IMG/VR virus record: IMGVR_UViG_3300020194_001592
Location: 1 to 21,129 of that record
Direction: 5' to 3' (one strand)
Origin: a virus
Length of the DNA: 21,129 nucleotides
The translations under genes were made by a program, and so were the position numbers. The notes beneath the pieces are model-generated. The model had not been told where the DNA came from and made no database searches. It worked only from the letters and a program-made list of their open reading frames with translations. Position 1 is the first letter of the stretch; the number at the start of each line of letters is the position of its first letter. This document shows positions 4,530 through 6,533 of this stretch, piece after piece.

Positions 4530-4638
4530 TGATTTTTCTCCACATCGATATTGTACCATCAGGATAACATATGCGAAGGTGAGTAATATCACCAAAGTGT
4601 TTTTCTATATCCTGAACAAATTCTTTTACTCCCTTCAT
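4420..4638 (-). CDS. Small hypothetical protein, 72 aa, overlapping ninB
   Basis: ATG 4638 overlaps the helicase stop as ATGA, so translation coupling is likely, and the first 36 residues (MKGVKEFVQDIEKHFG, then LRICYPDGTISMWRKINGKF) lie in sequence used by no other gene. They look like a folded alpha/beta unit. The second half, basic and low in structure, is read in another frame over the first 110 bases of ninB. Either this is a genuine long overlap or only the N-terminal part matters. No family recognised. Confidence 0.6.
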   Translation of the reverse strand: MKGVKEFVQDIEKHFGDITHLRICYPDGTISMWRKINGKFYAYKKQSSGPATRIAKVKSRKAIHYRDQGEKD

Positions 4639-5543
4639 GGCTTCTCCCGGTATCTTAATTGTAATTCATTAAACCAAAGATTAAGTTGTGGCTCGGCTGG
4701 AAAGTTTCTTTGCTTCTGTACAATCATGTACGCATCCGGGACAAGCTTCATCTCATCTTTAGTTTTTCCTTTTTCTTTGATCTGAAATTCTTTGGGCCTG
4801 TTTCTGTAAATACAAATCACATTGTCAGATAAGTTTCTAATGTGACTAGATCCCATAATCTTTTCAGGATCAGGTTTCATCATCTCATCGACCTTACGAG
4901 TGTGTGCCACTAAAAAAATATGAACCTTCAGATCTCTAGATAAAACTGCTAATTGATCTACAAACTTTTTCTGACTTTCAAAATCATCCTCACTCACATC
5001 ACTGACCTTCATAAGTGAATCGACAACAAAAATATCTATCCCCTCGATTTCCTTAGCCCAAATAATACAAGAGAAGATGTCTTCAGATTCAGTCACTCCA
5101 CTTTGATCATAGATGTATAACTTGTTTTTCTTTGCCTCACAAAACTCTTTTACATATTGCTCAGTAGGTTTAGAGTTGCCTGACTGTATAATCATTCGAG
5201 ATAAAGTAATAGCAGGTCTCATCTCAAAACTTGCAATCAAACACTTAGTCATTTTAGTTAGGTAGAGAACAACTTGGTTTAACCACATCGATTTACCATG
5301 ACCTGATATACCTTGAACAATTGTTAACTCACCAGTACGAATTCTAAACTGATCATCAAGCCTACTAAATGGCATTGCATATCCTGAGTCTTGCTCGTGA
5401 AATAAATACTCGACAACTTCATCCACATAACTATCTGAACCCTTGACTTTAAAATCAGTTAATCGTTCACCTGTATACTCATCAATCTCACTTTTAGTGA
5501 CAGTGAGCTGATCTACAATCTCACCAGCTGTCCAGTCTTTCAT
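4635..5543 (-). CDS. DnaB/gp4-type replicative helicase (RecA fold)
   Basis: A 302-residue ATPase that would unwind phage DNA at the fork. Walker A is GISGHGKS (78-85), preceded by RIRTGELTIVQG. Walker B is IFVVDSL (171-177), motif H3 is VAHTRK (212-217), and the arginine-finger-like QKQRN is at 276-280. The context IRNLSDNVICIYRN is typical of DnaB/Twinkle/T7 gp4-type helicase domains. It has no primase or zinc-binding domain and is shorter than DnaB, so priming must come from elsewhere. Start and stop overlap both neighbours by ATGA. Position after the initiator gene matches lambda gene P, but here a helicase replaces the loader. Confidence 0.9.
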   Translation of the reverse strand: MKDWTAGEIVDQLTVTKSEIDEYTGERLTDFKVKGSDSYVDEVVEYLFHEQDSGYAMPFSRLDDQFRIRTGELTIVQGISGHGKSMWLNQVVLYLTKMTKCLIASFEMRPAITLSRMIIQSGNSKPTEQYVKEFCEAKKNKLYIYDQSGVTESEDIFSCIIWAKEIEGIDIFVVDSLMKVSDVSEDDFESQKKFVDQLAVLSRDLKVHIFLVAHTRKVDEMMKPDPEKIMGSSHIRNLSDNVICIYRNRPKEFQIKEKGKTKDEMKLVPDAYMIVQKQRNFPAEPQLNLWFNELQLRYREKP

Positions 5544-6406
5544 GAATGACTCCTATCTTCTTGCAACAATGGATTAATAGAATCAACTTTAGAATCTCCA
5601 GTACCAGCTTCCCATCTTCTTTGGTTTAGGTATGTGGATGGTTTAGGTACAAATCCATCTATCCACTCTTGATCATCTTTCATAGCTATAACATGATCTA
5701 CAATCAGTCTTGTTATTTTATACAACTCTTTTGATTTCCATTTTGCTAAACATGATGCTCGATCTACTTTTCTTTTACTAGAGGGCCATGTTTCCCAAAA
5801 CTCATCAAATGTCTGTTCTATAGTTTCTTTTATATTATTATTGGGTATTGGGTCTTGGGTAATGGGTAGTATTACGTTTGTATTACTATCGTATGCATCA
5901 TCTTTCTGCTTATTCCATCTCTTCATAACATTTTGTCGAGCCTTCTCAGATCTCTCGTAAACCCTTGATAACTCTGCCTCTGCTCGTTTATTGACATACC
6001 CTTTTTTAGTCTCAATAAAGAAAACTGAGAGTAATCTTTCAACAACTTCATTTGTAGATTTAACTTTCATTGATAATTCTGAAATATTTTTTGGTAATGG
6101 TTTTTCTGTATCGTAATACAACCATAATAATCCAAGATAAACACTTCTATCTTCATGTGTTAAATAATGTGTGCTTTTGATAAAGTCACCTATGTGATGG
6201 CTATAAAATTGCATATCGTCCCTTTCATTTTCGTATATGTAATGTTGTAATTTAAGTATTCTTGTTGATGGTAGCCTGTTATCTGCCTTCCATTTGTATA
6301 AAGCTTGTCGAGATACAGGTCCTAAAGTCCTTGCCATAAGCCTCATATCACCATTGAATACATCTAAAGCTTCTTTAAATGTTATGTTCATTCTAATTTG
6401 CTTCAT
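5540..6406 (-). CDS. Replication initiator: Cro/YdaS-like HTH + DUF1376 + C-terminal domain
   Basis: Frames extend to 6493, but ATG 6406 is chosen: it follows AAGAGGAATAAAA and overlaps the stop of the small upstream gene. It has 288 residues. Residues 7-60 form a YdaS/Cro-like helix-turn-helix (MARTLGPVSRQALYKWK, then RILKLQHYI). Residues 65-155 resemble DUF1376 (QFYSHHIGDFI, then HEDRSVYLGLLWLYYDTEKPLP), found in phage replication initiators. A polar linker (165-195) contains tandem DNA repeats at 5841-5868. Residues 197-268 have FDEFWETWPSSKRK ... FVPKPSTYLNQRRWE, a common C-terminal unit of such initiators. It likely binds the origin and recruits the helicase encoded next (ATGA overlap). 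The HTH may give autoregulation. Domain calls are from motif memory. Confidence 0.8.
   Translation of the reverse strand: MKQIRMNITFKEALDVFNGDMRLMARTLGPVSRQALYKWKADNRLPSTRILKLQHYIYENERDDMQFYSHHIGDFIKSTHYLTHEDRSVYLGLLWLYYDTEKPLPKNISELSMKVKSTNEVVERLLSVFFIETKKGYVNKRAEAELSRVYERSEKARQNVMKRWNKQKDDAYDSNTNVILPITQDPIPNNNIKETIEQTFDEFWETWPSSKRKVDRASCLAKWKSKELYKITRLIVDHVIAMKDDQEWIDGFVPKPSTYLNQRRWEAGTGDSKVDSINPLLQEDRSHS
5841..5868. repeat. Four tandem 7-bp repeats (TTGGGTA type), possible origin iterons
   Basis: TTGGGTA, TTGGGTC, TTGGGTA and ATGGGTA follow one another with exact 7-bp period. They lie inside the linker-coding part of the initiator gene and are flanked by AT-only sequence (TATATTATTA) on one side. 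Lambda has its iterons inside gene O in the same way. Function as an origin is inference. Confidence 0.6.
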
Positions 6407-6533
6407 TTTTATTCCTCTTATATTCCTCGACAGCCTCATCAGCTTCCCTCTGTTGTCTTTCTTCTTCCTCGATCCTTCTCCAACCATCGTCAATATAACG
6501 ATCTATGTCTTGGAACCAACTATCTCTATCCAT
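6393..6533 (-). CDS. Small acidic/coiled protein, 46 aa, first gene of replication operon
   Basis: ATG 6533 lies behind AAAAGGAGAAGAAA, one of the best ribosome-binding sites in the window. The frame begins MDRDSWFQDIDRYIDDGWRR and continues with a run of Glu, Arg and Gln (EEEERQQRE), which looks like one long charged helix. The stop TAG overlaps the initiator start (ATGAAGCAAATTAG), so the two are coupled. A longer upstream reading of the initiator frame over this region would give an Arg/Lys-rich extension and is rejected in favour of this gene. No family recognised. Confidence 0.75.
   Translation of the reverse strand: MDRDSWFQDIDRYIDDGWRRIEEEERQQREADEAVEEYKRNKNEAN

Follow-up and report, generated by a model that had tools for sequence, protein, structure and literature searches.

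A conserved 7-bp repeat within phage DUF1376 genes that is probably part of the replication start site

Described origins inside initiator genes

The origin of phage lambda lies within its initiator gene O, and the O protein binds iterons as dimers and also binds single-stranded DNA, as described in passages of PMC5043065 and PMC7466680. The latter study also made silent changes in the iterons of lambdoid phages. In SPP1, oriL is located inside gene 38, where direct repeats and an opening element occur within the initiator gene (passages of PMC6316719). Plasmid Rep proteins and RctB bind duplex iterons and one opened strand, according to passages of PMC10797057. The same passages describe iteron plasmids, V. 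cholerae ori2 and the DnaA-trio as having a short repeat in the opening region that the initiator binds in single-stranded form. Strand opening is still called an open question in part of the review PMC5043065.

The window analyzed here is the whole of a 21,129-base virus record, IMGVR_UViG_3300020194_001592, in which four tandem heptamers lie inside a DUF1376 initiator gene. From what those passages say of oriLambda, the two loci would share an origin in the middle of an initiator gene, iterons beside an opening region and a helicase-loading gene next to them. The lambda iteron unit is longer than the 11-bp unit found in DUF1376 genes, and the opening region of oriLambda is an A+T-rich, purine-biased tract, whereas DUF1376 genes carry a strict 7-bp CCANNAA array. 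No match between DUF1376 and lambda O was found in the searches made. SPP1 oriL, likened here by its description, resembles the DUF1376 case in its intragenic repeats, but belongs to the initiator of a Gram-positive phage. The motifs of ori2 (G/AATCA) and of the DnaA-trio (G/AAT trios) and their periods differ from CCANNAA. Unlike them, the DUF1376 repeat lies in coding sequence, and its binding as a single strand is presumed.

P1 oriL is annotated in its record as internal to repL, and so it also lies inside an initiator gene; no significant periodic array was found in repL. Tandem heptamers were expected at P1 oriR, but the record has none at an exact 7-bp pitch. The Rac prophage has an active origin, oriJ (in part of PMC3945230), and was considered as an experimental anchor. 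It was set aside, as we found no source that places oriJ. The Rac ydaU gene of E. coli K-12 (L019, 920-1777) has AACAGGTGTTC-like units in its linker and no heptamers. No description of the repeats presented here for DUF1376/YdaU genes was found in the titles and abstracts of open-licence literature, and one elsewhere is possible.

The initiator gene and heptamers of the window

The DUF1376 replication initiator is encoded on the minus strand at 5540-6214 and has 224 amino acids, counted from an internal ATG (MQFYSHH...). It matches PF07120 (DUF1376) in Pfam with E=3.7e-16 and 59.7 bits, compared to a curated cut-off of 30.1, and its PHROG match is primosomal protein. An AlphaFold2 model (73-row alignment, mean pLDDT 77) divides it into an N domain (residues 1-106), a disordered linker (107-131) and a helical C domain (132-198). 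Most structural neighbours of this N domain are winged-helix domains or proteins. Since Z is at most 6.8 and Foldseek gave no match at E <= 0.001, the assignment of a winged-helix-like fold to this modelled domain is suggestive only.

The end of the initiator gene is overlapped by a gene for a DnaB-type helicase-domain ATPase (4635-5543, minus strand), which matches PF03796 (DnaB_C) with E=1.5e-13 and PHROG primase/helicase. Genes for a Sak-type annealing protein and a YqaJ recombinase sit in the divergent operon of the window. In several relatives, helicase, loader or other replication genes adjoin the DUF1376 gene. Methylophilales phage Venkman has similar genes, including HTH, SAK-like and YqaJ genes and one annotated DNA primase. 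The initiator ORF of the window extends in frame upstream (6208-6493, minus strand) with a short HTH-like segment, compared to a separate HTH gene in Venkman. The ATG at 6214 is directly preceded by a strong Shine-Dalgarno-like AAAGGGA. The upstream segment and the DUF1376 part may be made as two proteins from one frame.

The heptamers read TATTGGG, TATTGGG, TCTTGGG and TAATGGG on the plus strand (5839-5866). In the family register CCANNA(A/C), they are CCATTAC, CCAAGAC, CCAATAC and CCAATAA on the minus strand, which is the coding strand (5838-5865). The first-pass annotation had described four units at an exact 7-bp period, and these were recovered by Tandem Repeats Finder (5839-5868, period 7, 4.3 copies). 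Their lag-7 self-match score is 14, which was reached neither in 200 shuffles of the gene's synonymous codons nor in 100 runs of a first-order Markov model of the full 21-kb window (maximum 13). The heptamers are thereby confirmed as real and not due to chance. They also lie where they had been placed. An all-A/T stretch, TATATTATTA (5831-5840), sits beside them on the 3' side of the coding strand and is a possible melting site in this phage, and the AlphaFold2 model together with the repeat coordinates places the repeats in the segment coding for linker residues 107-131. Elsewhere in the window, at about 1505-1531, a tandem A+T run (TTTATTTATTA) has a lag-7 score of 16, above that of the heptamers, and looks like plain A+T low-complexity sequence.

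Two loci (L001 and L002) are identical to the window at the heptamer region. The closest non-identical relatives, L003 and L004, have 92% protein identity over the 224-aa protein. It had been suggested that the heptamers be checked in relatives whose linker protein differs, and these two loci keep all four units with an altered linker (I to N, one Asn codon lost). The base that changed is at a variable heptamer position.

A repeat conserved as DNA in DUF1376 genes

To the window we added 410 loci, among them the best 80 each of 548, 585, 588 and 592 confirmed stretches. The DUF1376 profile matched an ORF in 408 cases, and 395 of these ORFs have their stop codon inside the locus. After greedy clustering at 60% identity, 156 representatives were left, which favour relatives of the queries because the best 80 of each list were taken. 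A lag was called significant at p <= 0.01 against 200 synonymous shuffles per gene, so that about 1.6 genes are expected per lag. Lag 7 was significant in 116 of the 156 genes, and the counts for lags 14, 11 and 22 were 89, 58 and 47. As a control, the loci supplied 412 further ORFs, of which only 1 was significant at lag 7 and 6 were at lag 11. The lag-7 test was failed by 40 representatives, several of which have 6-bp, 8-bp or broken CCANNAA units.

The heptamer array is present in 28 of 41 genome-contig representatives. Array-bearing MAG contigs are labelled Nitrospira, Bacteroidetes, Magnetococcales and Peregrinibacteria, although such labels may be wrong for phage contigs. On a tree of N domains, lag-7 significance changes 31 times, compared to a shuffled mean of 35.7 and minimum of 30, and shows no clear clustering. 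Judging from the sequences compared, the heptamers of the window are one case of a widespread element found in many bacterial viruses that are not otherwise related.

On the coding strand the consensus is CCANNAA, and it recurs in genes of GC 0.33-0.71. It was derived from 410 units in 93 of the 116 lag-7 genes, leaving out 23 genes with arrays under 21 nt or with fewer than 60% CC-anchored units. The array is strand-asymmetric, with A+C and almost no G on the coding strand. The coding strand has 401 cases of two ACCA motifs spaced exactly 7 bp apart, and the other strand has 1. An A+T profile of 120 aligned genes, taken from the 156 representatives, shows a modest rise limited to the array and some 10 bp beyond it. 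The A+T-rich tract that had been noted beside the array is a feature of the window and does not appear to be a general one of the family.

A DNA-only search of viral contigs for four CCANNAA units found at least 80 loci. Among the 80 listed, 78 are DUF1376 genes or their truncated ends, and 75 match DUF1376 by HMM. The 78 include L413, which has a DUF1376 gene on the strand of the array, and L468 and L477, contig-edge pieces with linker and C-terminal parts that we read as the same kind. The two listed loci outside DUF1376 genes are L455 and L465.

Genes that combine related C parts with other N domains indicate which part of the protein the repeat accompanies. In L530 (Vibrio phage 1.211.A), the C part is 91% identical to that of Thalassomonas phage BA3 (L016; query residues 164-253, 90 aligned). 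Its N domain is not DUF1376, and the gene has a 5/15-bp GAGTA/TAAGA array and no heptamers. L531 and L535, with other N domains, bear other repeats. The Venkman replication gene aligns at 26% with the window and resembles its initiator in the C part, and no 7-bp array was found in that gene. This domain swap, together with L531, L535 and Venkman, indicates that the heptamers follow the DUF1376 domain and not the C part. More broadly, L530, L531, L533, L534 and L535 are phage- or plasmid-borne initiators with other N domains and other linker repeats, which comprise GAGTA 5/15-mers, CCTGATT 7/21-mers, GGAAG/GGAAT 5-mers and 10-mers. In 11 plasmid records with a DUF1376-type gene as the sole initiator, none was smaller than 38 kb. 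In L532, a DUF1376 gene of a Vibrio phage carries an annotated CRISPR spacer feature (1861-1890) in the sequence that codes for its linker, located 5' of its heptamers.

The first-pass annotation had argued that codons do not account for the 7-bp period. This holds, and it is strengthened by conservation that is independent of codon position. Whichever of the three codon positions they occupy, bases 1, 2, 3, 6 and 7 of CCANNAA are 91-100% conserved and bases 4 and 5 vary. Since the array moves through the three codon positions, constraint on the protein cannot yield this pattern. Divergence between related genes was measured in 36 disjoint pairs with an array, from 81 pairs at 72-97.5% nucleotide identity. 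The CCA..AA positions differ at 8 of 785 sites (1.0%) and the NN positions at 48 of 312 (15.4%), where differences within the array may be undercounted up to twofold because the array was defined in one member of each pair. Elsewhere in these pairs, third codon positions are 20-23% different and second positions of the N domain 3.7%. By this comparative evidence, the heptamer repeat is preserved as DNA rather than as protein.

A candidate bipartite origin

In 42 of 42 DUF1376 genes with both arrays significant, the 11-bp array lies 5' of the 7-bp array. The gap is usually 0-40 bp but exceeds 200 bp in three genes. The 11-bp units are dyad-like and differ between lineages, with the types AACGGGCGTTC, TGCGAACGCAA, AACCCAGTGGG and ATACGAACGTA. 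Iteron class was assigned in 91 of the 156 genes by loose regular expressions, which left the window unclassed. On the N-domain tree the class changes 17 times, compared to a shuffled mean of 40.6 and a minimum of 34. In the window, the heptamers are preceded on their 5' side (coding strand) by three 11-bp iteron-like units, ATACGATAGTA, ATACAAACGTA and ATACTACCCAT (5862-5894, minus strand), and ATACTACCCAT overlaps the first heptamer. They are degenerate, and lag 11 alone is not significant (p=0.155). Set against ATACGAACGTA, the unit found in L090, a relative with 39% identity, they match at 25 of 33 positions, which 0 of 1000 synonymous shuffles reach. The heptamers had been taken for the initiator's iterons. 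This is probably wrong, since the 11-bp dyads vary by DUF1376 lineage and CCANNAA is constant. On these comparisons, the 11-bp dyad units 5' of the heptamers are more likely to be the iterons.

A second initiator family was found through genes with an L534-type N domain, whose PHROG match is replication initiation protein and which gave no Pfam match in the three tested. Among 64 representatives, lag 5 was significant in 40, lag 10 in 36 and lag 11 in 29. The pentamer consensus, taken from only the 33 GG-anchored lag-5 arrays (170 units), is GGAAR. In all 18 genes that have both arrays, the 11-bp one comes before the 5-bp one. In its sequences, this family repeats the plan of 11-bp units followed by a short repeat, with another code.

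Several other explanations of the heptamers were weighed. A mutational one, in which they are functionless slippage in a tolerant linker or a frame-switching phase-variation tract, draws on the fact that slippage commonly produces short tandem repeats in disordered linkers and that 7 bp would shift the frame. Yet all units are identical in just 4 of 103 arrays, which speaks against both slippage and phase variation. One consensus spans the whole GC range, mainly NN varies between relatives, 395 of 408 genes stay open as far as a stop inside the locus and unit numbers favour no frame class. The pure repeats, variable number and frame switching of a phase-variation tract were not found, and we consider this explanation very improbable. 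Selection on the linker peptide (such as PITNNQEP), with the DNA repeat as a by-product of a repetitive disordered peptide, is extremely improbable. The arrays do lie in a disordered linker and in coding sense, and many encode similar 7-residue cycles. However, synonymous shuffles abolish the period in 116 of 156 genes, codon position has no bearing on which bases of the heptamer are conserved and which vary, CCA..AA hardly ever changes and the residues encoded in the window are not repeated. The lowest probability goes to a G-quadruplex. On the plus strand of the window, four GGG runs with 4-nt loops fit G3N4G3N4G3N4G3 (5843-5866), but the family consensus has just two G per unit on that strand, so a quadruplex is not the conserved property.

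Rho-loading sites are C-rich and G-poor, and the sense strand of the array is A+C-rich and G-poor. The initiator is HTH-type, and the helicase gene is downstream of the array. The array could therefore act in mRNA or as an operator, for example in Rho loading or autoregulation of the helicase gene. This is improbable, as Rho requires neither an exact 7-bp period nor a fixed CCA..AA, the second family has G+A-rich GGAAR repeats at the same place, unlike a Rho site, and the adjacent 11-bp iterons are left unexplained. Alternatively, the heptamers themselves could be double-stranded binding sites (iterons) of the initiator, and the 11-bp units an operator or second class of site. The heptamers are tandem, conserved and absent when the DUF1376 domain is replaced, as this would have it. 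A 7-bp pitch, however, sets successive sites on different faces of the helix, and CCANNAA stays constant over lineages while the 11-bp dyads change with them, as cognate sites would. We regard this arrangement as possible but unlikely.

Our preferred reading, to which we give a probability of about 0.72, is that the heptamers are one half of a bipartite origin in the linker of the DUF1376 initiator, made of iterons for the initiator and an opening or loading array. The heptamer repeat is thus probably part of the replication start site of these viruses, and a lambda plan with a new repeat code is the best reading of the analogy. Direct support comes from sequence comparison, in the conservation as DNA, the consensus, the order of the arrays, the specificity for initiator genes and the association with the N domain. 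From these we infer the origin status, the binding of either repeat by the initiator and the part that the heptamers would play in strand capture. Weighing against the reading are the 40 representatives that fail at lag 7, the weak 11-bp units of the window, the modest and narrow A+T rise, the lack of such arrays in P1 repL and the lack of heptamers in K-12 ydaU. The intragenic origin that the first-pass annotation had likened to lambda O gains strong comparative support from the DNA-level conservation, the initiator-gene specificity and the fixed order with the 11-bp iterons. The GC skew to which it had looked does flip at about 6.5 kb, but the flip coincides with a flip in gene orientation, and therefore GC skew is not diagnostic of an origin in the window.

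By analogy with lambda O, SPP1 gene 38 and P1 repL, the iterons would bind the winged-helix-like domain and the heptamers would open. The DUF1376 domain would bind the upstream 11-bp dyad iterons as double-stranded DNA. The CCANNAA array, strand-asymmetric and A+T-enriched, would be the opening or loading element beside them. Once the duplex melts, one strand would be held by a protein contact repeated every 7 nt, most likely made by the initiator itself, and the adjoining DnaB-type helicase would be loaded at the heptamers.

The parallel with the L534-type family is the basis for a more general reading, which we hold tentatively and at somewhat below even odds. Winged-helix phage initiators may generally write their own origin into the segment that encodes a disordered linker, as lineage-specific 11-bp dyads followed by a strand-asymmetric repeat for single-strand loading that marks the family. 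If so, the family marks would be CCANNAA every 7 nt for DUF1376 and GGAAR every 5 nt for the second family, and the second repeat would be likened to the DnaA-trio as a single-strand loading code. The linkers would then stay disordered because they must carry origin DNA.

If the bipartite reading is true, the origins of many uncultured and temperate phages could be read straight from sequence, and DUF1376, which is listed as 'unknown function', would gain a role. Linker repeats in phage replication proteins, which might be dismissed as low-complexity peptide, would be cis-acting DNA. A constant heptamer beside changing iterons would also provide a direct way to test how the recognition of duplex DNA and the capture of a strand are kept apart by an initiator.
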